Source: a virus
Length of the DNA stretch: 29,035 bases
Virus record (IMG/VR): IMGVR_UViG_3300009183_004348
Location: 1 to 29,035 of that record
Direction: 5' to 3' (one strand)
Each line of letters begins with the position of its first letter. Positions within the stretch are counted from its first letter, which is position 1. Below the pieces are notes generated by a model. The model was not told where the DNA came from and searched no databases. It saw only the letters and a program-made list of their open reading frames with translations. Shown piece after piece: positions 6,580 through 29,035 of the stretch. Both the position numbers and the translations under genes were made by a program.

Positions 6580-6613
6580 GTGTCTCCTCATTTAAACCAC
6601 CTTCACACGATTA

Positions 6614-7453: not shown

Positions 7454-7701
7454 TTTGTTTACATATTAGACTACTTTATCGTCTAATCGCTCCTTGGGCA
7501 GTGCCCATTAATGTACTTTTAATTTCCTTTGTGTTTTCCCATTACCTCGACAGTTGTTAAAATGAAAACACATTTATTTTAACATGACTTACGTTTCTCT
7601 ACGTTACTACAAAAATATTTAAGTGCCTATACCTAAATGTTATACTCCGCTGTTAAATTTCCAACACTGTTAAAAATCTAACATGTTGTAAAACCAACAC
7701 C
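7454..7701 (-). promoter_or_regulatory. Structured intergenic leader between csgG and the curlin gene
   Basis: This 248-nt AT-rich gap holds no ORF that I can support. On the minus strand it contains TTAAATATT (late-promoter-like) and a perfect 8-bp inverted repeat GTTAAAAT/ATTTTAAC (7556-7563 with 7576-7583). A Shine-Dalgarno sequence AAGGAGC lies at 7489-7495, followed by a 7-bp hairpin ATTAGAC/GTCTAAT (7465-7471 with 7481-7487). The Shine-Dalgarno sequence is about 35 nt from the ATG, but only about 12 nt if the hairpin is folded out, so the hairpin may bring it into range. Confidence 0.5.
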
Positions 7702-8571: not shown

Positions 8572-8572
8572 A

Positions 8573-9049
8573 TTAATTTCCAAACTGGAAAGAATTTAAT
8601 GGTATTGTTACTGATGTTTTGTTACCTGCGACATCTGTTACCTGCATAACGATGCCGTCAAGATTCTTGTACCAAGTAATGTTGTTTGATTCAAAGTCAA
8701 AAGATCCACAGGGGCTTGTTAATGAGCTGGTTGAGCTTGAACAATTACCGCTGTTGGCAAACATTGATGTTGCAAGATTCTGTGATATCTGTGCGTAGAT
8801 ACGCGACTCAAGATTGTTTAAAAACTTCTTAACGTTGGTGTTTTCGGCATCTGCCTTTTTCTTATCAAGAGACGCTTGAATGTCTTTTTGAAGAGCGATT
8901 CTGCGTGTCTGCTCTTGATTCTCGATAGTTAATACGTGAGAACTGTAACCAGAGCCACTAAAGGCTGGGCTTTTGAATTGGTAATCATTAATTGGCGCGG
9001 AAATTGCCATGGCTGGCAACATTGCTAACGCAATTACTATTCTTCTCAT
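8573..9049 (-). CDS. csgF: CsgF, curli assembly factor
   Basis: A 158-residue exported protein with a signal peptide (MRRIVIALAMLPAMAISA). Its mature N-terminus INDYQFKSPAFSG matches the CsgF segment that plugs into the CsgG pore (in E. coli TMTFQFRNPNFGG). The C-terminal half has the expected pattern of a helix (FLNNLESRIYAQISQNL) followed by beta strands and TSVTIPL. It contains two Cys near the middle that are not in E. coli CsgF. CsgF sits at the extracellular mouth of CsgG and couples secretion to nucleation. It is the first gene of the curli-like block, directly behind two late-promoter-like motifs, and its stop is one base from csgG. Confidence 0.88.
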   Translation of the reverse strand: MRRIVIALAMLPAMAISAPINDYQFKSPAFSGSGYSSHVLTIENQEQTRRIALQKDIQASLDKKKADAENTNVKKFLNNLESRIYAQISQNLATSMFANSGNCSSSTSSLTSPCGSFDFESNNITWYKNLDGIVMQVTDVAGNKTSVTIPLNSFQFGN

Positions 9050-10107: not shown

Positions 10108-10115
10108 TATTTATC
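10108..10115 (-). promoter_or_regulatory. T4-type late promoter element GATAAATA
   Basis: GATAAATA overlaps the TAA stop of the bilin reductase gene and is followed by ATCGT and the ATG at 10102. The geometry is the same as at 1086-1093 (five nt to the ATG), again predicting a transcript that starts at the initiation codon. Confidence 0.55.
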
Positions 10116-10794
10116 GGATTTCAGGGAACAGGCATTCTTGAATAAAGACCTTAACATCCTCTTCAGATAGCCCTAAACTGACCATTACACGCGGTGTATG
10201 CGGGTTGCACTTCTGATTTTGAGCATAGTAGTTCTGCTCAAATGTGTTATCTGCTATTGTATGATCAGATTCTTCTACTGTACTCAAATAGTGCGAGATT
10301 GTAGTTCGAGCAAGATCTGCAATCTGCTGTAATTCTTCTTCATCGCTGACATTGCCCGCAGCTACCATACTTTTACTGAATATGTTAGTGGCCCACTCCG
10401 GTAGTTCACGTTCTTTACGCCACTCGAGTTTTGCCACTTCATCAGCGAACCATTGCATCATAGGATGATTAGCATCATTAGTCTTGCTATAATCGTGAAA
10501 ACAGCCGGTAATTTTATTCTTACCAGCTATTACGTCAAATCCATAAATTGGTGCTGAGTTGTGAGTATGTGGAAAGATGCAACAATGCATCATCCATAGC
10601 CCTTTTGTTAGCCGAGCATCGACGACATCAATGTGGGCCCGACGGAACTTGTTGCCAGACCATACACGATTAACCCAACCAGGCTGATTAAAACGATACA
10701 TTCCAGGTTCGCTGACTTCGATCCCAGCTTGCTCAAACGATGCTTCGAGGAGGTGTTGTATTTCAATTAGTGTATCCCAGACCTTACTCTCCAC
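10111..10794 (-). CDS. Ferredoxin-dependent bilin reductase (PcyA/PcyX-like)
   Basis: This 227-residue protein aligns by eye with PcyA. FRRAHIDVV matches PcyA FRKLHLELA; MMHCCIFPHT matches ILHCVMFPRT (His70, PcyA His88); PIYGFDVIAGKNKITGCFHD matches PMFGCDLVGGRGQISAAIAD (Asp87, PcyA Asp105). LPEWATNIFS and a C-terminal NYYAQNQKCNPHTPR...CLFPEI are also shared. These enzymes reduce biliverdin IXalpha using ferredoxin. PcyA Glu76 is replaced by Asp56; that residue is needed by PcyA for exovinyl reduction, so the product may be phycoerythrobilin, as reported for viral PcyX enzymes, rather than phycocyanobilin. It overlaps the heme oxygenase gene by 11 nt, so the two enzymes should be made together. 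The product is inferred, not shown. Confidence 0.9.
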   Translation of the reverse strand: MESKVWDTLIEIQHLLEASFEQAGIEVSEPGMYRFNQPGWVNRVWSGNKFRRAHIDVVDARLTKGLWMMHCCIFPHTHNSAPIYGFDVIAGKNKITGCFHDYSKTNDANHPMMQWFADEVAKLEWRKERELPEWATNIFSKSMVAAGNVSDEEELQQIADLARTTISHYLSTVEESDHTIADNTFEQNYYAQNQKCNPHTPRVMVSLGLSEEDVKVFIQECLFPEIR

Positions 10795-11329
10795 GGTACA
10801 AATCTCGCATCATCTTAATAGCGTATTCAAATGCTACTCGAGCTTCGTCTCCAAGGTCATCGGTTAGAGTTTCACGGATAGCTGCTTTGAGTTCATCAGC
10901 GTTTTCAAACTCGTAGAACTTGCCACTGCTGATATGTGCTACCTGTTTCTTAATGATTTGACCACCGAATAAGTCGCCCATATGGCGGCAGTATAGATGC
11001 GCTTTAATAAGGTGTTTGCGTTCTGGGTCATTGCCGAGTTTGTGTAAGTACGTTTGATATTCGAGTGTAGCTGGTGTTAGATAACGATAACTACAATCAT
11101 CAATTTCTATAAAGTCTGCGTAGATTGCTTTTAATCGTTGGATGCCATTTAGGTTGATCATCATACCTTGACGCTTGGTATACCATTCAATGGGATCGTA
11201 AATGGCCAATAGATTATAAAGATAGTTAGCGTAGTCGTTCTTTTCAATTTTGCCGCTAAGTAACATCTTAGCGAATACTGTTGTTTCTGCCTCGTGATGA
11301 AGGTCTTTAGTGATTTCTCGTAAGCTCAT
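10784..11329 (-). CDS. Heme oxygenase, biliverdin-forming
   Basis: A 181-residue HO-1-type heme oxygenase, shorter than cyanobacterial HO1 (about 240) and lacking its C-terminal tail. The N-terminus LREITKDLHHEAE matches the proximal helix, with His11 as likely heme ligand. HLYCRHMGDLFGGQIIKKQ matches the distal helix motif GDLSGGQ, with Asp119 retained and Phe121 where Ser is usual. The enzyme opens heme to biliverdin, CO and iron, with electrons from ferredoxin. The start shares bases with the clpS stop (TAATG), and the 3' end overlaps the bilin reductase gene, giving a complete two-step heme-to-phycobilin cassette. Iron release for scavenging is an alternative purpose. Confidence 0.92.
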   Translation of the reverse strand: MSLREITKDLHHEAETTVFAKMLLSGKIEKNDYANYLYNLLAIYDPIEWYTKRQGMMINLNGIQRLKAIYADFIEIDDCSYRYLTPATLEYQTYLHKLGNDPERKHLIKAHLYCRHMGDLFGGQIIKKQVAHISSGKFYEFENADELKAAIRETLTDDLGDEARVAFEYAIKMMRDLYRGE

Positions 11330-11628
11330 TATTCTTCTTCCACTTGTATACGTAAAGGGCTACCGTTAGCTCTGGCAAGATTAGTTGCTTCAATGCCTCG
11401 CTGTTCGGCTATCTCGTATGTATACACACCGGCAATGCCGCTGCCCGTATTGTGGATTTCAAGAGTGATTTCTTTAGCACGAGTCTCATCGTGTTTGAAA
11501 ACTTGTGTAAGAAGTTCAATGACCAGTTCCATAGGAGTTTGATCGTCGTTCAAGAAAATTACTTTCCATAGCTTAGGCGGTTGCAATGCTACTACAATCT
11601 TCTCGTCAATTTTTGTATCAGTGGTCAT
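11329..11628 (-). CDS. clpS: ClpS, ClpA adaptor for N-degron substrates
   Basis: This 99-residue protein has the whole ClpS core. LWKVIFLNDDQTPMELV has the Asn-Asp-Asp, Thr and Met of the N-degron pocket; ITLEIHNTGSGIAGVYTYEIAE has the pocket His and the ClpA-contact region. ClpS delivers proteins with destabilising N-terminal residues to ClpAP and, in E. coli, blocks ClpAP degradation of ssrA-tagged proteins. A TTGGAGAAAAG ribosome binding site precedes the ATG. It lies between hsp20 and heme oxygenase, as part of a protein-quality block with dnaK. The same phage encodes a tmRNA, so it may control both tagging and proteolysis. Confidence 0.92.
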   Translation of the reverse strand: MTTDTKIDEKIVVALQPPKLWKVIFLNDDQTPMELVIELLTQVFKHDETRAKEITLEIHNTGSGIAGVYTYEIAEQRGIEATNLARANGSPLRIQVEEE

Positions 11629-11644
11629 CTTTTCTCCAATCTTA

Positions 11645-11666
11645 TAAGGGGGATTTCTCCCCCTTA
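11645..11666 (-). other. Strong 9-bp RNA hairpin with GAAA tetraloop between hsp20 and clpS
   Basis: TAAGGGGGA pairs perfectly with TCCCCCTTA around a GAAA (GNRA-type) loop when read on the minus strand. No T-run follows, so a classical terminator is unlikely. It could be an mRNA stabiliser or processing site that sets different levels for dnaK-hsp20 and clpS-ho. Confidence 0.6.
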
Positions 11667-11677
11667 CTGTTATTATA

Positions 11678-12115
11678 TTACTTAATCTCTACAATGTCAA
11701 TCACTTTTGGCTTAGCAGATTCTGGAATATTGCGTACCAATTTAACAATTAACATACCATTAGTGATTTCTGCACCCGTAACTTCAATGTGCTCAGCAAG
11801 TGGAAACTCGCGAGCAAAGTCACGTGTGGCCAAACCACGATGTAGATACTGTTCTGGTTGATATTCTGTAGTCATGCTTTCGCCTTTGATTACAAGAACA
11901 TTGTTTTCAACAGTAACAGCGATTTCTGATTTGTTAAACCCTGTAACAGCAACCTGTATCTCGTACTGATTGTCACCAGTCTTGATAATGTTGTGTGGGG
12001 GATAGTTGTTAGACACTTGGTTAGCAAATCTGCGTTCCATTGTGTCAAACATTGTGTCAAAGCCGATTAAGGCTCTACTTAGTGTGTCAAGTCTTGATAG
12101 TGCGTTGTTGTTCAT
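11678..12115 (-). CDS. Hsp20/IbpA-type small heat-shock protein
   Basis: I set the start at the ATG at 12115 (MNNNALSRLD), which has AAGGAG at normal distance; a longer frame to 12142 has no such site. The 145-residue product has an alpha-crystallin domain from about 38 to 135: NQYEIQVAVTGFNKSEIAVTVENN, LVIKGE, YLHRGLATRDFAREFPL and MLIVKLVRNIPE. It is a holdase that keeps unfolding proteins soluble for DnaK. Small Hsp20 genes are common in T4-like cyanophages, but a dnaK-hsp20 pair is not. It sits 59 nt after dnaK and shares a 17-nt leader with it. Confidence 0.92.
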   Translation of the reverse strand: MNNNALSRLDTLSRALIGFDTMFDTMERRFANQVSNNYPPHNIIKTGDNQYEIQVAVTGFNKSEIAVTVENNVLVIKGESMTTEYQPEQYLHRGLATRDFAREFPLAEHIEVTGAEITNGMLIVKLVRNIPESAKPKVIDIVEIK

Positions 12116-12120
12116 AATAG

Positions 12121-12137
12121 TCTCCTTATAAAGTAAG
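12121..12137 (-). promoter_or_regulatory. 17-nt leader repeat before hsp20 (identical to that before dnaK)
   Basis: The minus-strand sequence CTTACTTTATAAGGAGA is identical at 12121-12137 and 14084-14100. It contains the ribosome binding site (AAGGAG) and a TTTATAAGG core. The match extends well beyond a Shine-Dalgarno sequence, so it may be a duplicated regulatory leader or a second promoter type. Confidence 0.6.
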
Positions 12138-12173
12138 AACAATGGGGGCCTCGAAAGTACTCCCTCTTATAAC

Positions 12174-14078
12174 TTAGTCTGCTTTCTTCTCTGTGAAGGT
12201 AGCATCAACTACGTTATCATCTGCAGGCTGTTGTGGAGCTTCGGCTTGTGCCTTGGCCTGTTCAGCTGCCTGCTTTTTCTCCAACAATGCTGCCATTGCT
12301 GGGAAAACTTTTTCAAGCTCTGCTTTAATCTTGTCAGCATCGTCGCCTTGTTTAGCGATTTCAACTGCGGTGATTGCCGCTTGAATTTCTTCTACTTGTT
12401 CAGTAGTCAATTGATCTTTAAACTCTTCAAGATCTTTTTCAATCTCATGTAACTGTGCTTCGGCTGAATTACGTGTTTCAATAAGAGTACGCTGTTTCTT
12501 ATCTGCTTCGGCATTGGCTTCGGCATCTTGTACCATCTGCTGAATTTCAGCTTCAGTTAATCCAGAATCGGATTTAATAGTGATCTTGTTTTCTTTGCCA
12601 GTTGTTTTGTCCTTGGCGCTGATATGCATAATACCGTTGGCGTCAATGTCAAAAGTAACTTCAATCTGTGGCATACCACGGCGTTGTGGTTGGATACCTT
12701 CAAGATTAAATTCACCCAACAACTTGTTGTATTGTACAAGTTCACGTTCACCTTGGAAAGCCTTAATTGTAACAGCTGGTTGATTGTCTTCTGCTGTTGA
12801 GAATGTTTGGCTGGCCTTAGTTGGGATTGTTGTGTTCTTCTGAATCAACTTGGCCATTACGCCGCCCAATGTTTCAATACCCAGCGACAATGGTGTAACG
12901 TCTAACAATAGAACGTCCTTACGATCGCCACCGAGAACAGCACCTTGGATAGCAGCACCTGCGGCCACTGCTTCGTCTGGGTTAACATCCTTACGTGGTG
13001 CTTTACCAAACAACTTTTCTACAGTTTCCTGTACCTTAGGCATACGTGTCATACCGCCAACAAGGATAACTTCGTCGATGTCTGCGGCAGTAACGCCTGC
13101 ATCTTTCATAGCAGTTTGGCAAGGGCCAACTGAACGTTGAATTAGTTCGTCAACAAGGCTTTCAAGTTTAGCACGAGTCAATTTAACATTCAAGTGCTTA
13201 GGACCTGTAGCATCTGCTGTGATATATGGCAGGTTAACATCTGTTTGTGAGGCACTGGACAATTCAATCTTGGCTTTTTCAGCTGAGTCTTTCAAACGCT
13301 GTAATGCCAATGTATCGTTCTTAAGATCGACTCCGTTTTCTTTCTTGAACTCATCGACCAAGTGATCCATAATGCGTTGGTCAAAGTCTTCACCGCCGAG
13401 GAATGTATCACCGTTGGTGCTTAATACTTCGATCTGTTTCTCGCCTTCCACGTTTGCGATTTCAATAATTGATACGTCGAAAGTACCGCCACCGAGATCG
13501 TAAACAGCAACTTTCCTGTCAGCTTTATCAGCTTTATCAACGCCATAACTAAGAGCTGCCGCAGTAGGCTCGTTAATAATACGCAGTACTTCCAAGCCTG
13601 CGATTTTTCCAGCATCCTTAGTCGCCTGTCTTTGACTGTCATTAAAGTATGCAGGTACTGTGATAACTGCTTGAGTAACTTCTTCACCTAAATAATCCTC
13701 TGCTGTCTTTTTCATTTTACGCAAGACTTCAGCTGACACTTGCGGTGGTGCTAATTCTTTGCCATTTGCCTCAATCCAAGCATCACCATTACTTGCTTCA
13801 GTGATCTTGTATGGCATTAGGTTAATATCTTTTTGTACTGCTTCTTCTTTAAACTTACGACCGATCAAACGCTTGGCAGCATAGATGGTGTTTTTAGGAT
13901 TAGTAACAGCCTGACGTTTTGCAGGAGCACCAACAAGGATTTCGTCGTTAGTATAGGCGACGATTGAAGGTGTAGTTCTTGCACCTTCTAAATTTTCAAT
14001 AACTTTGGATTTTCCGTTCTCGATAACAGCCACGCATGAGTTGGTGGTGCCGAGGTCAATACCGATGATCTTAGACAT
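12174..14078 (-). CDS. dnaK: DnaK (Hsp70) chaperone, full length
   Basis: This 634-residue DnaK is intact. The N-terminal ATPase begins [18 protein letters not shown] and includes [27 protein letters not shown] and [14 protein letters not shown]. The linker [16 protein letters not shown] leads into the substrate-binding domain, and the C-terminus is a Gln/Ala-rich tail ([18 protein letters not shown]). Wording in the 340-520 region resembles betaproteobacterial DnaK. DnaK refolds proteins with DnaJ and GrpE, neither of which is seen here, so it would rely on host partners. Full-length dnaK is rare in phages and suggests recent acquisition or a large genome. A perfect TATAAATA late promoter and a two-hairpin leader precede it. 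Confidence 0.97.
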
Positions 14079-20265: not shown

Positions 20266-20676
20266 TCACTTTGTAAGTCTTGCAAGTTCTTTATAGCCAT
20301 TATAAGTTGGATGAACAGTGTCAGAACTGCGATCAACTGCTCGTGCATCTAATATATGATCACCAAAATGTCGAGCAACCATCCAAACAGCTTTTCGTTT
20401 GGTTTCTTTAATATTTGGTAAAATCCAATATACGCGGTCTGCATCGACCAACTGTCGAAGTGCTATTAATTCTTCATAGGTATCAATATTCTTTGTATCA
20501 TTACTGCCTAAACTAATAATAACAGTTTTGGCACTGGTATTACCTTTGGTATTGAGCACATGACGATTAACATAATTGTAACTGTTAATACCACTGACTG
20601 CATAGGTAACACATTCTTTACGAATCTGTCCAACACCGACAGCTAAACTGTCACCTAAGATTAAACATTCTAACAT
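20266..20676 (-). CDS. SGNH/GDSL-like hydrolase
   Basis: I set the start at ATG 20676 (MLECLILGDSLAVG), which has GGAGAAATT upstream; the frame runs back to 20739 without a ribosome site. The 136-residue protein has SGNH block I GDSLAVGVG (nucleophile Ser), block III ISLGSNDTKN (Gly, Asn), and block V HPTYNGYKEL (His, after DTV). This is a compact esterase/acylhydrolase fold. Phage SGNH enzymes often deacetylate surface glycans or peptidoglycan. There is no signal peptide, so a virion or cytoplasmic role is likelier than secretion. It follows the pqqA-like gene after a hairpin. Confidence 0.85.
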   Translation of the reverse strand: MLECLILGDSLAVGVGQIRKECVTYAVSGINSYNYVNRHVLNTKGNTSAKTVIISLGSNDTKNIDTYEELIALRQLVDADRVYWILPNIKETKRKAVWMVARHFGDHILDARAVDRSSDTVHPTYNGYKELARLTK

Positions 20677-20732
20677 AATTTCTCCAATCATAAAACATAA
20701 TGTAACATCTTTTGAAACTTTAGTCAAGAGAA

Positions 20733-20750
20733 AGCCCACCGAAGTGGGCT
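20733..20750 (-). terminator. Hairpin terminator after the pqqA-like gene
   Basis: AGCCCAC pairs with GTGGGCT around a TTCG tetraloop on the minus strand, followed by TTCTCTT. This is a stable hairpin with a modest T-rich tail, 17 nt past the pqqA stop. It would separate the minigene from the SGNH gene. Confidence 0.7.
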
Positions 20751-20766
20751 ACTCATGTTTTGGATA

Positions 20767-20838
20767 TTACTTGTTCATTACATACATTGTAACTTCAAAA
20801 CCGAAACGCATTTCTTCTGCTGTTGGCTTGGTCCACAT
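20767..20838 (-). CDS. pqqA: PqqA-like PQQ precursor peptide, 23 aa
   Basis: A 24-codon gene with a strong AAAGGAG ribosome site 8 nt before the ATG. The peptide begins MWTKPTAEEMR and ends FGFEVTMYVMNK. It matches PqqA in length (23-24), in the MWxKP start and in the key E-V-T-x-Y core, where the Glu (residue 15) and Tyr (residue 19) are cross-linked by PqqE to make pyrroloquinoline quinone. Both are present with the right spacing (E-x-x-x-Y). No pqqBCDE genes are in the window, so it would depend on host enzymes. PQQ serves methanol and other alcohol dehydrogenases, pointing to a PQQ-making host. It has its own leader and terminator, so it is expressed as a separate unit. Confidence 0.88.
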   Translation of the reverse strand: MWTKPTAEEMRFGFEVTMYVMNK

Positions 20839-20861
20839 AGTATTTCTCCTTTATAATAAAA

Positions 20862-20921
20862 CATACTGCATTAGTATGTATCACTATTATACGACAAAAA
20901 CACCAGGTAAACCATACTAAT
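20862..20921 (-). promoter_or_regulatory. Promoter and inverted-repeat leader of the pqqA-like gene
   Basis: On the minus strand TATAAT (20886-20891) is a good -10; the -35 is poor. It lies between perfect 9-bp inverted repeats ATTAGTATG (20913-20921) and CATACTAAT (20870-20878). The downstream arm can instead pair locally as CATACT/AGTATG (20862-20878). This is an operator-like layout, or competing hairpins in read-through transcripts from ahpD. Confidence 0.5.
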
Positions 20922-20937
20922 AATCATTAAAGATCTA

Positions 20938-21444
20938 TCAAGAATTTAACACCTTAGCAACACTATTCATTACACTGGCAATTCGTCCAATATCACGAAG
21001 TTGTTCTACAGTATAGCCTTCTGTCTTGAGTGTTTCATAATGTGCCTTAACACAGAAGTGACACTTGCCAACAATACTTGCAGCCAAACTAAATGCTTCA
21101 AAGTTTGACTTGGTGGTTCCGCCGTGACTTGCGATTGCGTTCATACGTAGGCCTGCTGGCAATCCTTTTAGAGCAGGATCGTCTGCCATTTCAACATAAG
21201 GATACCATACATTGTTCTGTGCCATGATACTTGCGGCAGTCATTGCTGACTCTGCATGTACCGGAGCATCTGCTAATATTACTGATAGGATTTTACCGTT
21301 ACCAGTTGCGGCGAGTGCGGCCACAGCACAACCCATAGCCACATCAGCATCTAATGTACTACGCAGTAGGACAGCATCAAGATTTAACTTGGTGTCCTTT
21401 GCGTAGTCTGGCAACGCTTCCTTTACGGAGTCGATGAATGCCAT
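20938..21444 (-). CDS. ahpD: AhpD-type alkylhydroperoxidase
   Basis: A 168-residue protein of the AhpD/CMD family. FEAFSLAASIVGKCHFCVKAHYETLK places Glu116, Cys128, Cys131 and His135 with the spacing seen in mycobacterial AhpD (Glu118, Cys130, Cys133, His137). The family's His132 position is Phe here, with a His next to Cys128 instead (CHFC instead of CSHC). AhpD reduces AhpC and has weak peroxidase activity. The ATG overlaps the ahpC stop (TAATG), so the two are co-translated as a self-contained peroxide-removal pair. Confidence 0.93.
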   Translation of the reverse strand: MAFIDSVKEALPDYAKDTKLNLDAVLLRSTLDADVAMGCAVAALAATGNGKILSVILADAPVHAESAMTAASIMAQNNVWYPYVEMADDPALKGLPAGLRMNAIASHGGTTKSNFEAFSLAASIVGKCHFCVKAHYETLKTEGYTVEQLRDIGRIASVMNSVAKVLNS

Positions 21445-21983
21445 TATAGAGTCTCTCCGCCTACTGTACGGTTACAAGCGCATAGCTCGCCAGTTTGTAG
21501 CGCATCAAGAATACGCAGAGTTTCTTCTGGACTACGGCCAACGTTCAAGTTGTTGACAGTCACGTGTTGGATTTCGTTGTTGGGGTCAACAATGAATGTG
21601 GCACGTAGAGCAGCACCTGCTGGAGCATAGAATACTCCCAACTGTTCAATCAATGACTTCTCACCACGTTGTGTGTCAGCAAATTGTGTGTGAGTGATCT
21701 TCTGTAAGTCACTATGTGCTTTCTGCCAGCTAACTTTGCAGAACTCATTGTCTGTGCTACCTGTGAGCAATACAGCATCACGATCAGCAAAGTCACCTGC
21801 TAACTTGTCATAGGCTACGATTTCTGTAGGACATACAAATGTAAAGTCCTTTGGATAGTAAACGATTACTTTCCACTTGCCTGGAAAGGATTCTTCAGTG
21901 ATGTCAAAAAATGCATCTTCTGGTTGTCCAGGCTTAACACCTGTGACCACGAACGGTTCTAATTTATCGCCAACTGTTTTCAT
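21444..21983 (-). CDS. ahpC: AhpC-type peroxiredoxin
   Basis: A 179-residue 2-Cys peroxiredoxin. The peroxidatic site is FTFVCPTEI (Cys51), with Thr and Pro of the active site, and Arg in the LRATFIVDP region. The C-terminus has ALQTGELCACNR (Cys168, Cys170), the two-Cys tail of the mycobacterial-type AhpC that works with AhpD, unlike E. coli AhpC, which uses AhpF. It reduces peroxides and peroxynitrite. It has AAGGAG and a sigma70-like promoter (22038-22066). It is followed directly by ahpD. Confidence 0.94.
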   Translation of the reverse strand: MKTVGDKLEPFVVTGVKPGQPEDAFFDITEESFPGKWKVIVYYPKDFTFVCPTEIVAYDKLAGDFADRDAVLLTGSTDNEFCKVSWQKAHSDLQKITHTQFADTQRGEKSLIEQLGVFYAPAGAALRATFIVDPNNEIQHVTVNNLNVGRSPEETLRILDALQTGELCACNRTVGGETL

Positions 21984-22037
21984 TTAATTCTCCTTGTGTG
22001 TGTTGAAAACTATATTCAGTGTTTATACTGATTGTTT

Positions 22038-22066
22038 ATTGTAATAGTATTTACAAATAAGATCAA
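22038..22066 (-). promoter_or_regulatory. Sigma70-like promoter of ahpC-ahpD, with overlapping TAAATACTATT
   Basis: TTGATC (22061-22066), a 17-nt spacer and TACAAT (22038-22043) form a plausible sigma70 promoter 55 nt upstream of ahpC. The spacer includes TAAATACTATT (22043-22053), a T4 late-like element, so the pair could be read in both early and late phases. Confidence 0.58.
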
Positions 22067-22079
22067 GCATTTTAATTGG

Positions 22080-22118
22080 TTTTTTCAATAATTATTTTAA
22101 TAACGCTTATTGAAAAAA
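22080..22118 (-). repeat. AT-rich 12-bp inverted repeat upstream of ahpC
   Basis: TTTTTTCAATAA and TTATTGAAAAAA are perfect inverted repeats with a 15-nt loop. The T-run at each end could act as a weak bidirectional terminator or a binding site. It lies between the omp terminator and the ahpC promoter. Confidence 0.6.
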
Positions 22119-22125
22119 TTAATAA

Positions 22126-22152
22126 CAAAAAAAGAGCCCGGAGGCTCCTTTG
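22126..22152 (-). terminator. Rho-independent terminator after the OMP gene
   Basis: GAGCC/GGCTC (22143-22147 with 22134-22138) with a short loop is followed on the minus strand by a run of T (TCTTTTTTTTG). This is a standard intrinsic terminator 19 nt past the outer-membrane protein stop. Confidence 0.82.
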
Positions 22153-22170
22153 ATGTATTCTAAGAATTAA

Positions 22171-22623
22171 TTAGAATGAGTACTTAACACCAGCGGCAAC
22201 TGTGCTGCCGTTTTGGTTGTTAATCTTGCTTTGGCCAGCTTGGTAACGATAGTCAACTGTCGCGGCCAATTGCTTGGTCAACGGATAGCTAACACCTGCA
22301 CCAACTAATGCGGCATAACCATCTTTTGCTGAACCGCTGTTAGCAACGTAGGCTGCACCTGCTTTAACTGCGATAGTAGCAGTAGCAACAGTAGCAACAT
22401 CGTATGAACCAACTAAACTGTACTTGCTGGTATCTGTACCTTTGGTATAACGATCAAATCCAGCGGTTGCGCCAAACTTGCCAAACTTCTCACCAACGGT
22501 AAAGCCTGCACCTGGACGATCGTTTGAACCACCCATGTCATAGCTGCCATTAACTCCGACTTCAACAGCACTTGCTGAAAATGCGGCTAATGCCAACAAA
22601 GATGCGATTGCTAATTTTTTCAT
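22171..22623 (-). CDS. Small outer-membrane beta-barrel protein
   Basis: I choose ATG 22623 (MKKLAIASLLALAAFSASA, signal peptide), preceded by AAGGAATTG; an upstream ATG (22662) would add 13 odd residues. The 150-residue precursor has a mature part of alternating beta strands (VGVNGSYDMGG, YSLVGSYDV, GYAALVGAGVSYPL, AATVDYRYQAG) and ends in GVKYSF with a terminal aromatic, the BAM recognition signature. About eight strands fit an OmpA/OmpX-size barrel. It has its own sigma70 promoter and terminator, so it is a stand-alone unit. Exclusion of competing phages by masking a receptor is a guess. Confidence 0.82.
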   Translation of the reverse strand: MKKLAIASLLALAAFSASAVEVGVNGSYDMGGSNDRPGAGFTVGEKFGKFGATAGFDRYTKGTDTSKYSLVGSYDVATVATATIAVKAGAAYVANSGSAKDGYAALVGAGVSYPLTKQLAATVDYRYQAGQSKINNQNGSTVAAGVKYSF

Positions 22624-22663
22624 ATCAATTCCTTTTTTAAAATAATGACTATTGTCATTCACT

Positions 22664-22693
22664 ATTATATAGTGTTGATCAGTTAAAAGTCAA
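22664..22693 (-). promoter_or_regulatory. Sigma70 promoter of the OMP gene
   Basis: TTGACT (22688-22693), an 18-nt spacer and TATAAT (22664-22669) on the minus strand lie about 41 nt upstream of the ATG. It starts right at the tmRNA terminator, giving a clean independent unit. Confidence 0.78.
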
Positions 22694-22694
22694 G

Positions 22695-22721
22695 AAAAAG
22701 CGGCATTTTCAGCCGCTTTTT
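22695..22721 (-). terminator. Rho-independent terminator of the tmRNA gene
   Basis: On the minus strand AAAAAGCGGC and GCCGCTTTTT form a stem with a short A/T-rich loop and end in a T-run. It lies just after the last pseudoknot of the tmRNA. Confidence 0.88.
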
Positions 22722-22724
22722 GGT

Positions 22725-23045
22725 TGTTTTGGTTACAAGGTAAGTCCTACCCCGGACACGCTGTTTTTTAGGCAGCTAAAGCAAATTTGCTTTCATTGGC
22801 AGCACCGCGAACGGTATTACCTGTGAAGCTCATCGCTGTAAAGTCGAATGTATCTGCGTTTGCATTTACGATTTTTGCTTGATTTACAGTCATCGCCTAC
22901 TGTGTTGCCTCTTTCGCTATCTCACCATGTCGAAGCCTGGTCATCCCCAAAAAATACACTATTTCAAATGCACTTTTTGGAGATGTCGGGAATCGAACCC
23001 GAGTCCACAATGCCTTCACTACGAAGGGATTACAACAATTCTATT
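22725..23045 (-). ncRNA. ssrA: Circularly permuted (two-piece) tmRNA
   Basis: The tRNA-like 3' part comes first: T-arm TCGGG-TTCGATT-CCCGA then CATCTCC and discriminator A (22978); CCA is not encoded. A 29-nt intervening segment (22949-22977), able to fold as a hairpin, follows. Next is the normal 5' end, GGGGATGACCAGGCTTCGAC, from 22948. GGGGATG pairs with CATCTCC over seven pairs with G3-U70, the alanine identity pair, which proves that the two halves form one acceptor stem. The tag frame (22768-22803) reads AANESKFALAA then TAA. It is followed by an H-type pseudoknot (22739-22742 with 22748-22751; 22744-22747 with 22754-22757) and a terminator. Exact outer ends are estimates. tmRNA rescues stalled ribosomes and tags nascent proteins. 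It lies directly after cspA and may share its promoter. Confidence 0.93.
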
Positions 23046-23056
23046 ATTTAACCAAC

Positions 23057-23260
23057 TTACGCTGGATAAATGTTTGCAGCCTGCTTGCCTTTTTGTCCTT
23101 GTACTACATCAAACGTTACTGCTTGATTTTCCTGTAGAACTTTGAAGCCTGAGCTTTGTATTGCTGAGTAATGAGCAAATAAATCCTCACCACCGTTGTC
23201 TGGAGTAATAAATCCAAAACCTTTGGTTTCATTAAACCATTTTACTTTACCTGTTGCCAT
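23057..23260 (-). CDS. CspA-type cold-shock protein
   Basis: A 67-residue single cold-shock domain with RNP1 KGFGFITP and RNP2 DLFAHYSAI. The wording [18 protein letters not shown] and [13 protein letters not shown] is typical of betaproteobacterial CspA. It binds single-stranded RNA and DNA and melts mRNA structures. It has AAAGGAAAG as ribosome site and a near-consensus sigma70 promoter, so it is probably expressed early. The stop is only about 10 nt before the tmRNA acceptor part, so cspA and ssrA could be one transcript that is processed. Confidence 0.96.
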
Positions 23261-23281
23261 TTTAATAACTTTCCTTTAATA

Positions 23282-23545
23282 TTAAATTTTACTTTCTTTT
23301 TGACTGTATGTCAAGAGTTTAGAATGCAAAATCATGTTTTCTGTTACTAATTTGGTTAAAGTTGCTAATAAAATCAAACGTTCTTCTTCTGTGTAAACAT
23401 CTTTGTCAAATTGCTCAATAATGCTTGTACCAATCATTTTCATTGCTTCTGTCTTGCCTTGCTTGAATAGCCCCCAGTCAAATGGGTCACCATCTTCTAC
23501 CGCAAATGCGATATCAATTAATTCTTCTAATGTTATTTTAGCCAT
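23282..23545 (-). CDS. Unknown acidic helical protein, 87 aa
   Basis: An 87-residue helical protein, starting MAKITLEELIDIAFAVEDGD and continuing FDWGLFKQGKTEAMKMIG and EEERLILLATLTKLVTENM. No membrane segment or catalytic motif is visible. The start overlaps the end of the DUF454 gene by 13 nt. Its 3' end contains the cspA promoter (23286-23314). It resembles short conserved proteins in T4-like phages, but I cannot name the family. Confidence 0.72.
   Translation of the reverse strand: MAKITLEELIDIAFAVEDGDPFDWGLFKQGKTEAMKMIGTSIIEQFDKDVYTEEERLILLATLTKLVTENMILHSKLLTYSQKESKI
23286..23314 (-). promoter_or_regulatory. Sigma70 promoter of cspA-tmRNA
   Basis: TTGACA (23309-23314, perfect), a 17-nt spacer and TAAAAT (23286-23291, one mismatch) lie within the 3' end of the preceding ORF. 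The predicted leader is about 19 nt with AAAGGAAAG before the ATG. Confidence 0.82.
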
Positions 23546-23943
23546 CCTACCTTTTCTCCACTATCAATTCTTCTCTGGTGTTCTTCAACACTCCCAGGAA
23601 AACGCCAAGCCCAAATGGCAACAAGGGCCATAAAGCAAGCAGTACTGATAATGCCAATTGTTTTTACTCCACTAAAAAACATAATGATCAAACTGGTACT
23701 CATCATGAACAGCATAAAGAATTTCATCTTGGTAGGGAATACACGCTTCTCGCCCCAATTGGTAAGGAATGGTCCGAACAATTTATGATTGTAGATCCAG
23801 CGATGCATACGTTCGCTGCCTTTTGAAAAACAATAGGCAGCAAATACTACGAAGATACTGTAAGGTAGGCCGGGAGTTATAACTCCGATGTAGGCCATAC
23901 CAAGGCTTAGAAAGCCAAGAATGTTCCAAAATAATTTTTTCAT
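23533..23943 (-). CDS. DUF454 (YbaN-like) inner-membrane protein
   Basis: A 136-residue protein with hydrophobic segments at about 5-40 (FWNILGFLSLGMAYIGVITP, PYSIFVVFAAYCFSKGS) and 74-110. The signature RMHRWIYNHKLFGPFLTNWGEKRVFP is characteristic of the DUF454/YbaN family. That family is of unknown function in bacteria and is sometimes linked to heme or respiration loci. A phage copy is unusual. A GATAAGTA element lies 4 nt before the ATG, with no Shine-Dalgarno sequence. Confidence 0.88.
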   Translation of the reverse strand: MKKLFWNILGFLSLGMAYIGVITPGLPYSIFVVFAAYCFSKGSERMHRWIYNHKLFGPFLTNWGEKRVFPTKMKFFMLFMMSTSLIIMFFSGVKTIGIISTACFMALVAIWAWRFPGSVEEHQRRIDSGEKVGWLK

Positions 23944-23947
23944 CTTG

Positions 23948-23955
23948 TACTTATC
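23948..23955 (-). promoter_or_regulatory. GATAAGTA late-promoter-like element before DUF454 gene
   Basis: One mismatch from GATAAATA, 4 nt before the ATG at 23943, in the same layout as at 1086 and 10108. It overlaps the region just past the preceding stop (23958). Confidence 0.42.
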
Positions 23956-23957
23956 GG

Positions 23958-24953
23958 TTAGGCAGCTACGATTCGATTAATCCCGGCATTAGCAACAATG
24001 TCAGCATGTAGATTAGGAGTAAACTTGCCACCAGAGGCACCATTTAATGTAGCCAACCTGTTCTGTGGTTTTGATTTTGTAATACTGAGTCCCCCGGACG
24101 GTAATCCAGGGATAGCATAACTGCAATGTATCCATACAGTCTTAGTTGGCAAATATTCAAGTAACAGTTGATCGTACGGTAAATTCTTGCTCATCCATAC
24201 AGCGATATCAAAATAGTCGTTTGAGTTAACTCCGCGAAATTGAAAGTCTGCTGCCTGACCAGTACCATGTTGTCCGCCACCAATGCTCGCACCATGGCGG
24301 AAGCTGTTGGTCATAAATGCCTTGGGATATTGTTTCTTTAATGGTTCGTAGATGTTCAGTGCAAGATTGGCAAGATTGTTAACAATCTGTGAAGGGGTCA
24401 TTCCTGGATATCCTTGGCTCAATTGATCAATAGTCCTTGGAAATGTTACTTTTTTAATCATGTCTCCGAGGGTAGTTCCATTGGGAGTTAGAGCAGTCCC
24501 ATAATCAAATGCTGTTCCAGTAATAGTAATGGTCTTACCATCGAAGGACTTGCCAGGCGGAACCCCAGGTCCTGCTGGTGTGATGTCTTTAGTGAGTGCA
24601 TCATACTCTTTCTGTGTAATCTTACCTTCTTTCAAAAATTCGTCAGCCTGCTTCTTACCTTCTGCTGCGGATTCTTCGCTGCCTGTATCGTTCTGCTGAA
24701 CAGCCTGGGCGATCGTTACGCTCGGTACTGCGTTTTGTTTAAATGCTGCTTTGGCTCGTGCTGCTTCGTATAATGCAATTTTTACACCGTTGGCCCAAAC
24801 ATCTTCAGCATCATATACTGGTTCAACTCTACCATTAGGGCCAAAGCGAAGCCCCTGTACTGCACCAAGCGGGTGAGTGTGTGGTTGCGGAGTCCACGGG
24901 CCTGCTGGATTGTTAGCCGGACCATAGGCTGGGGTTATGGTTTTAGTTGCCAT
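23958..24953 (-). CDS. Protein with C-terminal M15-type peptidase domain (virion-associated hydrolase?)
   Basis: A 331-residue protein. The N-terminus is Pro/Gly-rich (TPAYGPANNPAGPWTPQPHT) and followed by a helical linker with a short SHOCT-like stretch (KKQADEFLKEGKITQKEYDAL). From about 170, the fold resembles M15A D-Ala-D-Ala carboxypeptidases: MTNSFRHGAS, GGGQHGTGQAADFQFRG (His229, Asp236) and WIHCSYA (His276), the three zinc ligands. It should cut peptidoglycan cross-links. No signal peptide is present, so it may be a virion or tail component. The ATG follows the previous stop with no gap. Confidence 0.78.
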   Translation of the reverse strand: MATKTITPAYGPANNPAGPWTPQPHTHPLGAVQGLRFGPNGRVEPVYDAEDVWANGVKIALYEAARAKAAFKQNAVPSVTIAQAVQQNDTGSEESAAEGKKQADEFLKEGKITQKEYDALTKDITPAGPGVPPGKSFDGKTITITGTAFDYGTALTPNGTTLGDMIKKVTFPRTIDQLSQGYPGMTPSQIVNNLANLALNIYEPLKKQYPKAFMTNSFRHGASIGGGQHGTGQAADFQFRGVNSNDYFDIAVWMSKNLPYDQLLLEYLPTKTVWIHCSYAIPGLPSGGLSITKSKPQNRLATLNGASGGKFTPNLHADIVANAGINRIVAA

Positions 24954-25280
24954 TTACAGTTTTGGTAAATCTTTTATCTTATTAACGTAGGCTACAAATT
25001 CTTCTAATCCAATATTATAGTCTGTATCGTCATCAACATACAGTTTGTACATAGATGCCAGAATCATCCAATCGTAGACATTCATAGTCTTAACACCATC
25101 GGTCTTTGCTAAAGATTCAATAGATGAGATTTTAGTAGCAATTGTTTCAAGTGATGCTGCAATACGTGACAGATACGGACTATAGTCAATAGCGATGCCT
25201 GTATTAGCTTCATATAGATATGAGCTTGCCTGGGTACTGTCGTTTTGATCGAGTAGATCGTTTAATTTTGAAATAGCCAT
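24954..25280 (-). CDS. Unknown protein, 108 aa
   Basis: A 108-residue acidic protein, starting MAISKLNDLLDQNDSTQASS. A central helix reads YLSRIAASLETIATKISSIE, and the C-terminus is MNVYDWMILASMYKLYVDDD. No motif or membrane segment is visible. It precedes the M15-domain gene with directly abutting stop and start (TAA-ATG), so it probably works with it. A TGTAAATAG element is 7 nt before the ATG. I do not recognise it. Confidence 0.7.
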   Translation of the reverse strand: MAISKLNDLLDQNDSTQASSYLYEANTGIAIDYSPYLSRIAASLETIATKISSIESLAKTDGVKTMNVYDWMILASMYKLYVDDDTDYNIGLEEFVAYVNKIKDLPKL

Positions 25281-25290
25281 GATATACTAT

Positions 25291-25581
25291 TTACACCAGC
25301 TGAATGCCAGTAGTCTGCTTAATAAACTGATCGGCAAATTGCTTATCTGTTGCTTCAGCTACTGTTACTGTAGTTTTTAACAACTTTACTTCTTTTTCTG
25401 GATTTACTGTAAACAGGTATGGCATCAGCCCTGGACCACTTGGGCCCATTCCTATAACCTGTGGATGACTTAATTTATAATAAGTTGCTGTTTCTTCTGC
25501 GAGCTTGGCAACAAGTTCTTCGCCCGATGTGAGTTTTAGGGTGATCACCTCACCGACTGTTACGCCTTTATCAATTAGCAT
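25291..25581 (-). CDS. LSm-like small protein
   Basis: A 96-residue protein with a Sm-like N-terminal pattern: GEVITLKLTSGEELVAKLAEETATYYKL, then LSHPQVIGMGPSGPG, a loop, and LMPYLFTVNPEKEVKL. This matches the strand order of Sm1, which binds RNA in Hfq and LSm rings, although the Sm2 motif is not convincing. Small LSm-like proteins occur in T4-like phages. It overlaps glutaredoxin by 11 nt, in the nrd operon. RNA binding is inferred. Confidence 0.68.
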   Translation of the reverse strand: MLIDKGVTVGEVITLKLTSGEELVAKLAEETATYYKLSHPQVIGMGPSGPGLMPYLFTVNPEKEVKLLKTTVTVAEATDKQFADQFIKQTTGIQLV

Positions 25582-25801
25582 TTTCTAACCTTTTCTTAAG
25601 TTCTTGGAATCCACCTACTAACTCGTCATCGAGAAAGATCTGCGGAACTGTACGTGCTGTTGGGATTGCTTCTAACAAATCTTCTTTGGTATAACCATCA
25701 CCAATTTTCTTTTCTTCAAACACAATGCCCTTTTGTTTCAACAGTGCTTTCGCCTGGTCACAATACGGGCATTGGTACTTACTCCATACCACTGCTTTCA
25801 T
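25571..25801 (-). CDS. Glutaredoxin
   Basis: I set the start at ATG 25801 (MKAVVWSKYQCPYCDQAK), 4 nt after the 55-aa ORF stop and with an AGGA ribosome site; the frame runs 10 codons further but overlaps that ORF. The 76-residue protein has CPYC (11-14), the TVPQIFLDDELVGGFQEL glutathione site with cis-Pro, and a thioredoxin-fold pattern. It supplies electrons to class I ribonucleotide reductase, in agreement with its place in the nrd operon, as T4 NrdC does. Confidence 0.94.
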   Translation of the reverse strand: MKAVVWSKYQCPYCDQAKALLKQKGIVFEEKKIGDGYTKEDLLEAIPTARTVPQIFLDDELVGGFQELKKRLENAN

Positions 25802-25805
25802 ATTA

Positions 25806-25973
25806 TTATCCTGAATATACAACTCCACCATTTTTGTCAGTGACTCTTACCAAAAGAGCTCCGCGGTTCTTTTTCTGTAGAGCTGCTGAAATAGCAGCTT
25901 CTTCAGTACCGTAGGTTCCTAAGTTAGTCCATGCTTCAAATGGGGATTTGTTTTTAAATTGTGCTTTAAACAT
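25806..25973 (-). CDS. Small unknown protein, 55 aa
   Basis: A 56-codon ORF between nrdB and glutaredoxin, starting MFKAQFKNKSPFEAWTNLG and ending KNGGVVYSG. It fills the gap almost exactly: the ATG is 7 nt after the nrdB stop, and the stop is 4 nt before the glutaredoxin ATG. Helix-like TEEAAISAALQKKNRGALLVRV follows the middle. The codon pattern and position support a real gene. Such short ORFs next to phage nrdB are not something I can name. Confidence 0.75.
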   Translation of the reverse strand: MFKAQFKNKSPFEAWTNLGTYGTEEAAISAALQKKNRGALLVRVTDKNGGVVYSG

Positions 25974-25979
25974 AGTTTA

Positions 25980-27080
25980 TTATATAGCCGGAAGTAGGTC
26001 GTAGTCAATATTTTCACTCATTACACCGATAACATAATTGGTGCTTTCGCTTTCCTGTAGGGCTGTTTGCTTTTTATGTGTATCGCTGTGTTTATTAAAC
26101 CACGGAATAGGAGTCGTGCGTGGAGCAGGACCCTGATACTTAATACCAATTTCTTTTAGAGCGCCAACTGCTGTGTAGTCTACAAAGTCTTTAAGAATGT
26201 TAGCATTGAGTCCGATAACTGGTCCTTTTTGGAACAGATAATCAGCCCAGGCTTTTTCTTCACGAATTACATCTTCATATAATCTGTATACTTCACCCTC
26301 ACATTCTGCCTTGGCTGCTGCAAATCTTTCATCTTCTTTAACCACTTGGTTGATCAAATAAGCAGTCCAACCTTTGTGCAGTAATTCGTCTTGCAGAATC
26401 AAGCTGATGATGTTACCATTGCCAATAAAGATCTTATTCTCTACCATTGCAAGACTCGTAGCGAAGCTAACCATAAAGCGGAATGCTTCGAGAGCATAGC
26501 TGGCATGTAGTGCCATATAGATTGCTTTAATGTGTGTGCTTTCATTAATCTTTTCGCCAGCTTCTTTACGGCAATTAATTTGGTGCAGCGCATCGTAGTA
26601 GTTGCCCACACTCGATGCCATGTCTACAATTTCTTGAGTATCATGGATTGTATTAAACACTTCCTTAGGCACGTTATAGATGTTACGAATAATATGACTG
26701 TAACTACGACTGTGAATGTTAGTTTCAAAGAATGTCCAGTTGTAGATAAGTGCTTCAAGTTCTGGCAATGAACATACAGGTGTGAACACCTGACTTGGCG
26801 CACGACCTTGTAGACTATCGAGTGCTGTTTGACGTAGTAAGTTTGAAGTGAAGATGTGTTTAACCGCATCGCTGGCATCTTTAAAGTCATTGCTGTCTTT
26901 GCTTAGGCTAATCTCTTCTGGCACCCAGAAGAAGCCACGTGCAGTTGTTTCAAAGTCTGCGATCTTTTTATATTTTACTTCTTCGAAGCGTTGGATGGTA
27001 ACTGGGCCGGCTGGATCCAGAAACATCTTGCGATTAAGATAGTCTGTCTTTGTGTTTAAGTTATATTGCGCTTGACTCAT
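25980..27080 (-). CDS. nrdB: Ribonucleotide reductase beta subunit, class Ia
   Basis: A 366-residue R2 subunit. Diiron and radical residues by alignment with E. coli NrdB: Asp in RQTALDSLQGRAP (Asp84), His and Tyr in IHSRSYSHIIRN (His118, Tyr122), Glu in EAFRFMVSF (Glu204), and Glu/His in DELLHKG (Glu238, His241). The Glu115 region reads FFETNIHSRSY, with one extra residue between Glu and His compared with E. coli SETIHSRSY. R2 generates the tyrosyl radical used by NrdA to make dNTPs. It overlaps the SOD gene by 20 nt. The C-terminus SENIDYDLLPAI is the NrdA-docking tail. Confidence 0.95.
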   Translation of the reverse strand: MSQAQYNLNTKTDYLNRKMFLDPAGPVTIQRFEEVKYKKIADFETTARGFFWVPEEISLSKDSNDFKDASDAVKHIFTSNLLRQTALDSLQGRAPSQVFTPVCSLPELEALIYNWTFFETNIHSRSYSHIIRNIYNVPKEVFNTIHDTQEIVDMASSVGNYYDALHQINCRKEAGEKINESTHIKAIYMALHASYALEAFRFMVSFATSLAMVENKIFIGNGNIISLILQDELLHKGWTAYLINQVVKEDERFAAAKAECEGEVYRLYEDVIREEKAWADYLFQKGPVIGLNANILKDFVDYTAVGALKEIGIKYQGPAPRTTPIPWFNKHSDTHKKQTALQESESTNYVIGVMSENIDYDLLPAI

Positions 27081-27612
27081 TTACGTGTTCCCAATTTATA
27101 ATTTTCCATTGATTCTCTAAATATTTTTTCTTGTCAGCTTGATAGTCGAGTGCCCAAGCATGTTCCCACCAATCGATCAGCAATACGATATCTTTTTTAA
27201 TCTCGTGATTCTTAATAGTTTTAATCTTACCATCTTTAGCAAGATATACCCAACCACTGCCCTGTATAGTCATCGCTACCTTAAGGAACTCTTCTTTAAA
27301 GTTATCAAAAGACTTGTAGTGTTCTTCGATGAATGTTAAGATACCGCCTGTGGGCTTATTTGAACCCTTGGGTGATTGATATTGCTGAAAAAGAATGTTG
27401 TGTAAGAATACACCCGCCTCGTTGAATGTTGGATCACCTTCGCCCTTATTGTATCTTTCAGCGTAGGTTTTAGCCAGCTTGCCATAGTGATAGTTGATTG
27501 TATCTTCTGATATAGCTGGAGCCAATTCGTTAGCATCATAAGGCAAAGGTTTGATCTCTAAATGATCAGGTTTGCCCTCAAGCAAGACGTTTCTAATAAA
27601 ACTGTAGGACAT
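27061..27612 (-). CDS. Fe/Mn superoxide dismutase, divergent
   Basis: A 183-residue SodA/SodB-family protein. Metal ligands are His42 (INYHYGKLAKTY), His71 (FLHNILFQQY), Asp147 and His151 (LIDWWEHAWALDY); the gate Tyr50 is retained. The usual KHH after YHYG is KLA, and the WNH-x-FYW stretch is FLHNILF, so the active site shell is atypical. It has a 20-residue N-terminal extension. It converts superoxide to peroxide and oxygen. Its place inside the nrd operon, between nrdA (TAATG overlap) and nrdB, is unusual and suggests protection of the diiron radical cofactor. Confidence 0.88.
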   Translation of the reverse strand: MSYSFIRNVLLEGKPDHLEIKPLPYDANELAPAISEDTINYHYGKLAKTYAERYNKGEGDPTFNEAGVFLHNILFQQYQSPKGSNKPTGGILTFIEEHYKSFDNFKEEFLKVAMTIQGSGWVYLAKDGKIKTIKNHEIKKDIVLLIDWWEHAWALDYQADKKKYLENQWKIINWEHVNESSAI

Positions 27613-29035
27613 TATAGTTTACATGCCTCGCAGTCTTCTTCAATACTGGTTTCTACTTCACGTTCATTATGGAAGCCATTATAGTGTACTTCTGGTGTTG
27701 GCTCTGCTTGTGCTTTACTACCCGCTTTATTAATTAGGCTGTAGTAGAATGTTTTCAAGCCCCACATGTGAGCCTGCATTAGATTTTTAATAATTAATGT
27801 AGTAGGCACTTTACGATCAGCCCAGTGTGCTGGATTATAGAATGTATTAGTTGAAATACTTTGATCAACATAGGCAGCTAATACTGCGGCTGTTTTCAAG
27901 TAACCGTCACAATCTTTTTGTTCCCACATCATTTGATATTTGTTTTTCAATCTATGATACTCTGGAACAACCTGTACAAACGATCCTGCTTTACTTTCCT
28001 TAACACTAATCAAACTCATTGGCATTTCAATACCGTTGGTTGAATCAATTACAACGCTTGAACTTTCCACAGGAGCGATGGCCATCAAGGTTGCATTGCG
28101 AACTCCATACTGTTTCATATTCGTACGTAGTGTTTCCCAATCAAGTTCGGGAGCGAAGTCTGCAAGTTCATTGACTCCCTTGGCCCGTAGTTCCCAAGGA
28201 AAGACGCCCTTGCCGTATCGTGTATGTGCGCTATGCAGACAAGCCCCACGTTCTTTGGCAAGTTCAACTGTTGCTTCTGTTAGATAAAATGCTTGATGTT
28301 CCATCCAGCTCTTAACATCTTGTAATGAATCTTTCTCTCCGTACTTGAGTCCACGCTTGGCGTGCCAGTAGGCTAAGTTAGTTACACCAATACCTAATGG
28401 CTGTATCTCATCGTTACTGAGCTTGCTCTGTATCGACAAGAAGTCTTGATAGTCAAGAATGTTACACAGGCTACGCTGTAGAATCCTACAGGCTCTACGC
28501 ATATCCTCTGGATTACGGAACGATCCCCAGTTAATAGATCCCAGTGTACATAACGCTATGCGCCCTTCCTCGTCGTCTAATCTCTTAAATGGACGGGTAG
28601 GTAATAAGATCTCACAGCACAAGTTACTTTGATAGATAGTATGATATTCAGGATCAAAAGGTCCCTGGCTCATAACGTTATCAATAAACACCAAATAGAT
28701 GCGACCCGTGTCTGTACGTTCTTTTAGTATACCACTCTTGAACACTTCTTCCGCTGACATTACTTTCTTACGTAGGTCTTTGCGTTTTTCGTATCTAACA
28801 TACAGCTCTTCGAACAGAGCAGTATTCTTGTAGAAGGCCTCATACAAGTCCGGCACTTCGTTGGGATCGAAGAATGTAATGTTTTCTTTATTTTTAAATC
28901 TGCGCCAGAAGAACGCACTCAAGACAACACCATAGTCCATGTGTCTTACCCGAGTCTCCTCAGTTCCTTGATTGTTCTTAAGTACGATGAGATCATCAAA
29001 CTGATGATGCCAAATAGGATAAAAAACTGTCGCAC
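27612..29035 (-). CDS. nrdA: Ribonucleotide reductase alpha subunit, class Ia (N-terminus outside window)
   Basis: The reading frame continues open to the window edge: ...FYPIWHHQFDDLIVLKNNQG leads into RVRHMDYGVVLSAFFWRRF, so the Met at 28940 is internal and the gene is only cut by the window. Visible R1 features are SNLCCEILLPT (active-site Cys and Glu, E. coli Cys439/Glu441), ALCTLGSINW (Cys462), APVESSSVVIDSTNGIEMP and the C-terminal CEACKL redox pair. The enzyme reduces NDPs to dNDPs. The first of a tight operon with sod, nrdB, a 55-aa ORF and glutaredoxin, as expected for phage DNA replication supply. Confidence 0.96.
   Translation of the reverse strand, partial: ATVFYPIWHHQFDDLIVLKNNQGTEETRVRHMDYGVVLSAFFWRRFKNKENITFFDPNEVPDLYEAFYKNTALFEELYVRYEKRKDLRKKVMSAEEVFKSGILKERTDTGRIYLVFIDNVMSQGPFDPEYHTIYQSNLCCEILLPTRPFKRLDDEEGRIALCTLGSINWGSFRNPEDMRRACRILQRSLCNILDYQDFLSIQSKLSNDEIQPLGIGVTNLAYWHAKRGLKYGEKDSLQDVKSWMEHQAFYLTEATVELAKERGACLHSAHTRYGKGVFPWELRAKGVNELADFAPELDWETLRTNMKQYGVRNATLMAIAPVESSSVVIDSTNGIEMPMSLISVKESKAGSFVQVVPEYHRLKNKYQMMWEQKDCDGYLKTAAVLAAYVDQSISTNTFYNPAHWADRKVPTTLIIKNLMQAHMWGLKTFYYSLINKAGSKAQAEPTPEVHYNGFHNEREVETSIEEDCEACKL

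Follow-up and report, generated by a model that had tools for sequence, protein, structure and literature searches.

A stand-alone pqqA minigene in methylophages, probably a precursor-supply cassette for host PQQ synthesis

We find that the window (the whole 29,035-base stretch of DNA analysed, which is an entire IMG/VR virus record) carries a stand-alone pqqA gene, and that the same gene recurs among methylophages. Judging from sequence comparison, we read the phage pqqA, with a probability of roughly 0.78, as a precursor-supply cassette that would top up host PqqBCDE and sustain PQQ-dependent methanol oxidation. Phages of methylotrophs would thereby probably support methanol oxidation during infection.

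The gene runs on the minus strand, with its ATG at 20838 and its stop at 20767; the first-pass annotation had given these coordinates correctly and left the strand unstated. On the plus strand, 20767-20838 translates as LLVHYIHC... instead. The ORF had been called PqqA-like from its motifs, and a profile search with the family model had been proposed as a check. Both curated models now place the peptide above their cut-offs, with 40.8 bits (2.1e-10; cut-off 21.1 bits) for Pfam PqqA PF08042 and 38.8 bits (cut-off 20) for the NCBIfam equivalog TIGR02107. The peptide contains both Glu15 and Tyr19 of the E-V-T-x-Y core, the pair that becomes PQQ, and the motif arose by chance in none of 200 shuffled windows. 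The window ORF is a true member of the PqqA family. Solved structures gave no match to this very short query, and PHROGs contain no family for the PqqA peptide. The statement that no other pqq gene is present also held, as homologues of pqqB, C, D and E were found neither in the window nor in about 120 viral pqqA loci. Adjacent pqqBCDE, the usual but not the defining context of PqqA, is thus missing from the window; orphan pqqA copies are normal and common in Methylophilaceae. The features of the region, in the 5' to 3' direction of the minus strand, are as follows.

20938 to 21444, minus strand: AhpD-like gene (carboxymuconolactone decarboxylase family, PF02627), upstream of pqqA
20914 to 20930, minus strand: degenerate palindrome TTAATGATTATTAGTAT, a 13/17 match whose start precedes that of the -10 element by 39 nt
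20886 to 20891, minus strand: -10 element TATAAT, from the sequence and alignment with relatives, with no good -35 hexamer
20861 to 20879, minus strand: 5' leader hairpin ACATACT-AATGC-AGTATGT, kept in relatives with compensatory changes
20846 to 20852, minus strand: Shine-Dalgarno sequence AAAGGAG, from the sequence, 7 nt upstream of the ATG
20767 to 20838, minus strand: pqqA minigene, 23 aa, MWTKPTAEEMRFGFEVTMYVMNK (PF08042, TIGR02107, ORF listing)
20733 to 20750, minus strand: intrinsic terminator AGCCCACTTCGGTGGGCT followed by a T-rich stretch (RNA fold z = -3.85)
20266 to 20739, minus strand: GDSL/SGNH-like hydrolase, downstream of pqqA (PF13472, E 3e-4, a weak match below the Pfam cut-off)

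By these signals, the window pqqA is an autonomous cassette, a predicted small transcription unit in which degenerate palindrome, TATAAT, hairpin, Shine-Dalgarno sequence, pqqA and terminator follow one another. Eight phage cassettes of the window type, when aligned, show palindrome, -10, hairpin and Shine-Dalgarno sequence in unchanged order, and the terminator is recognisable in most, not all, of them. The early description of the ribosome site as strong held up, and of 131 viral pqqA leaders, 129 contain an AGGA or GGAG core. TATAAT occurs in 41 of the 131 viral upstreams (11.9 in shuffles), and terminators at 47 of the 131 loci (0.4 expected from shuffles); that of the window is also found in the related cassettes L092 and L310. 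The leader hairpin starts at about the inferred transcription start, and its stem is 96.8% paired across nine leaders; at 2 of 7 pairs, both partners vary. Since the fold energy of single leaders is by itself not unusual, this covariation is the stronger evidence for the hairpin, whose sequence could possibly be a DNA palindrome instead.

A canonical sigma-70 promoter was considered for the window and rejected: the -10 is clear, but no -35 lies at the proper spacing. Just 14 nt separate the hexamer TTTACC (20911-20906) from the -10, and a consensus promoter scan of the window did not call a pqqA promoter. Downstream, the GTG start listed for the GDSL/SGNH-like ORF overlaps the terminator, so translation of this ORF probably begins at an internal ATG.

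The window being an uncultured virus record, host DNA contamination or a chance ORF might be suspected, a reading that we regard as practically negligible. For pqqA in phages as such, it is already refuted by the complete isolate genomes that carry the gene. In the window, the flanking genes are of phage type: NrdB shares 62% identity with its counterpart in Xanthomonas phage X1, its match list is filled by phage NrdBs, and endolysin-like and further PHROG families are present. Furthermore, the same cassette lies among homologues of window genes in two other virus records, between AhpD and the GDSL/SGNH-like gene in L092 and directly after AhpD in L310, and the shuffled windows speak against a chance ORF. 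A close AhpD occurs in virus records of up to 357 kb, and a PqqA match was found in 6 of 18 long AhpD-type records chosen regardless of pqqA (2 weak, above the cut-off).

Elsewhere in the window, also on the minus strand, a heme oxygenase (PF01126) adjoins a ferredoxin-dependent bilin reductase (PF05996, 55.6 bits) at 10111-11329. The two form a bilin-making pair, and the phage host is probably a non-phototrophic methylotroph. A curli-type export region at 4139-9049 includes CsgG (PF03783, 160.9 bits), together with a CsgF-like ORF and repeat-rich curlin-like ORFs recognised by eye only. Within 11329-14078 and 21444-28940, NrdB (PHROG 86) and AhpC (PF00578) were confirmed by match, and ORFs for ClpS, Hsp20, DnaK, SodB, NrdA and glutaredoxin were assigned by eye, a stress and redox gene set that is unusually full for a phage.

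To survey phages, we used tblastn with PqqA over 50,697 phage records. All nine methylophage isolates encountered carry the gene, and they represent three lineages: Venkman, P19250A and MEP301; MEP401 and MEP402; and four Melnitz phages. The only other matches were Podoviridae sp. ctXG6705, whose terminase shares 74% identity with that of Venkman, and two 'Acinetobacter phage' contigs. A Pseudomonas-type PqqA query retrieved the same phage records. Among the 50,697 records, no Pseudomonas or Klebsiella phage gave a PqqA match, and the terminase neighbours of the three lineages (Pelagibacter or Vibrio phages) were absent from the matches. The carriers are thus methylophages and one close relative, which bears out the methylotrophic host proposed by the first-pass annotation and favours methanol over glucose as the branch served; the glucose dehydrogenases named alongside are correspondingly less favoured. 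The gene had also been described as easily missed, and indeed the isolate genomes leave it unannotated, its place being either blank or taken by an antisense 'hypothetical protein'.

'Acinetobacter phage MD-2021a' was set aside as an additional phage case, as the contig that we opened holds a bacterial pqqABCDE operon. Its PqqA matches are CAKLQF020000010.1 and CAKLQH020000055.1, the former being mislabelled and containing an ordinary bacterial pqqABCDE operon and ppk.

With a strict DNA pattern, pqqA was found in at least 120 IMG/VR stretches. Among the matches listed, all are ATG-led short ORFs that end a few codons from the motif, and nearly all have a Shine-Dalgarno sequence. In P19250A and MEP301 (pqqA at 2501-2569 in both), another residue stands in for Lys4 of the MWTKP start (MWTTP and MWTSP, respectively), and MWTTP also begins an OM43-type host copy. 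Lys4 can therefore be dispensed with, and counts from the strict pattern are too low. Five further viral copies (L005, L011, L014, L018 and L019) have a different PqqA type, MWTKPTYExIRLGFEVTMYFKN and similar, which suggests phages of another PQQ-making host group. Tests of 33 pqqA virus records found neither PqqE nor a PQQ-alcohol dehydrogenase or methanol dehydrogenase. Presence in related phages, proposed early on as a check, was confirmed for some relatives and failed for others, and universal carriage is ruled out. A Venkman relative without pqqA has 47 nt at the syntenic gap, against 212 nt with pqqA in Venkman, and several MEP401-type and large AhpD-type records, many of them fragments, lack a PqqA match.

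Viral pqqA is under purifying selection. Over 98 distinct methylotroph-type viral sequences, pN/pS is 0.14 (0.126 for host copies), a raw value partly biased by the search pattern, which fixed some residues; at codons unconstrained by the pattern (117 viral sequences), it is 0.33. The core residues E15, V/I16, T17 and Y19 are kept in 137 of 137 viral copies as EVTMY, EVTLY or EITMY, which is partly imposed by the pattern, and they are also kept in P19250A, in MEP301 and in family-model matches found without it.

On the host side, pqqA was present in 100 of 100 genomes of the family, in 1-12 copies (median 4) and in at least two copies in 97, and every host genome checked had one PqqE above the cut-off. 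Each PQQ uses up one PqqA, so the copy number of the substrate gene would be a natural setter of flux; with 1-12 pqqA but one pqqE in the hosts, precursor supply looks like the adjustable step. Published counts are 3-12 pqqA against a single pqqBCDE (PMC4109929) and, in another methylotroph strain, five pqqA copies, three of them separate (PMC9851590). As a phage auxiliary metabolic gene should, pqqA lies inside phage genomes (the isolates) and has a host homologue.

Host pqqA upstreams share the palindrome CTMATGAWWWTCATKAG, with 40 of 53 scoring at least 14/17 (1.6 in shuffles). In eight host genomes (about 22 Mb), all 13 exact matches lie upstream of pqqA, and the palindrome written backwards, as a control, has no match. 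With one mismatch, the palindrome also stands upstream of pqqB in the pqqBCDE operon of an OM43-type genome (CTCATGGAATTCATGAG at 5097-5113 of L669, about 80 nt from pqqB), and six more related genomes have sites whose distance from pqqE matches. Some one-mismatch host sites elsewhere look incidental; one that we opened is inside a coding region. Other bacteria scanned gave 7 of 107 pqqA upstreams at 14/17 or better, against 0.8 expected.

The same palindrome scores at least 14/17 in 55 of 135 viral pqqA upstreams (3.2 expected). At a threshold of 15/17, a scan of 1.14 Mb of phage DNA yields 20 sites, every one of them no more than 200 nt upstream of pqqA; at 14/17 the enrichment beside pqqA is 45-fold. 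The site of the window itself, at 13/17, is not significant alone, as 485 such sites lie far from pqqA in phage DNA; its support comes from the relatives (L310, L350, L092 and L641-L643) that score 14/17 at the same position. The host distance from palindrome start to -10 start is 61 nt in 25 of 45 cases, whereas in the window family it is 39 nt, which brings the two about two helical turns closer. In other phages it is about 60 nt, with a noisier spacing signal. As a predicted site, the palindrome is common to host PQQ genes and phage pqqA across the phage set. We found no paper on it within an incomplete literature search.

In the mechanism that we propose, the window phage would be a T4-like phage of a Methylophilaceae methylotroph. 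During infection, host PqqE with PqqD would cross-link the phage peptide at Glu15-Tyr19, and host PqqB and PqqC would finish PQQ from it. As one PqqA is used per PQQ, an extra, strongly translated copy would raise or maintain PQQ for XoxF/Mxa methanol dehydrogenase, presumably the main energy source of the host, so that PQQ could be upheld while host transcription fails. The palindrome, as an activator-type site, would let the host's own PQQ regulator turn on the phage gene. We infer both the rise of PQQ in infection and the role of the regulator. PQQ in Acetobacter rose by just 29% with pqqA plus pqqB, against eightfold with pqqABCDE (PMC7936290), and the precursor may therefore not limit PQQ everywhere. 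We put at slightly better than even the further proposal that several unrelated methylophage lineages each took up pqqA together with the host PQQ operator, an apparently undescribed PQQ-regulon site, through which the host regulator would switch on viral cofactor supply.

Among the alternatives, pqqA could be a neutral passenger, a short host cassette gained by recombination and expressed to no benefit. Its small size, its patchy distribution and its clean absence from a close relative at the syntenic site would fit this, but selection comparable to that on host copies, the presence of pqqA in all of the separate lineages on the same hosts, and the retained terminators, Shine-Dalgarno sequences and leader hairpin make it unlikely. 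Phages sometimes inhibit host pathways, and surplus phage PqqA might likewise act as a decoy that titrates PqqD/PqqE, or serve some other function as a peptide, so that PQQ falls or the radical SAM machinery is diverted. Such a decoy could freely lose the cross-link pair, yet the core is retained in the 137 viral copies and in the pattern-free matches, and functional host copies have a matching palindrome upstream, so we consider this role quite improbable. Less probable still, indeed very improbable, is that the phage palindromes serve as a sponge for the host regulator of PQQ genes, with pqqA carried along: the strongest phage sites do lie exclusively beside pqqA, but the coding sequence is itself constrained, and some phage cassettes, that of the window included, have only a degenerate site. 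Precursor supply to host PqqBCDE thus remains our preferred reading.

Phage pqqA itself is already known. It was reported in 2020 on a Lake Baikal methylophage contig, together with methanol dehydrogenase (population VP_266, PMC7678222), and a 2026 virus survey of reservoir sediment lists pqqA, pqqD and pqqE (PMC13188868). Full-text searches on pqqA, phage and Methylophilales returned no methylophage paper, and for pqq terms the Melnitz and MEP301 papers mention PQQ solely as a medium supplement. OM43 medium as published includes PQQ at 1 nM (PMC9004378), an amount that could hide an effect of phage pqqA on burst size. What is new is the unannotated pqqA in nine isolates and at least 120 IMG/VR stretches, its purifying selection and its host-type palindrome. 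A metagenomic note on a Baikal contig thereby becomes a recurrent trait of cultured methylophages that every isolate annotation had missed. Its role is testable with phages and hosts already in culture (Venkman or Melnitz on H5P1, MEP401 on FZCC0133), and the palindrome is a candidate operator for a regulator of PQQ synthesis in Methylophilaceae.

As here, phage pqqA was proposed to support Methylophilaceae methanol oxidation in the case of VP_266. That case is one representative contig also encoding methanol dehydrogenase, whereas we describe cultured phages of several lineages, no methanol dehydrogenase in the pqqA virus records tested, and in addition cassette anatomy, selection and the palindrome. 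The sediment survey likewise treats virus-encoded pqqA as an auxiliary gene, but in the parts available to us it does so in a frame of phosphate solubilisation, without anatomy, methylotroph link or regulation. The chromosomal orphan pqqA of Methylophilaceae (PMC4109929, PMC9851590) is also a stand-alone 23-residue gene with the same peptide type and a palindrome upstream; it differs in being chromosomal rather than virus-borne and in a palindrome-to--10 distance of about 61 nt instead of the 39 of the window family. Taken together, the findings suggest that, within C1 metabolism, methylophages adjust how much of a ribosomally made cofactor precursor is supplied. Cyanophages with photosynthesis genes (psbA) similarly supply a rapidly consumed part of the host energy machinery; that part is a reaction-centre protein in their case, and a cofactor peptide substrate in the pqqA phages.
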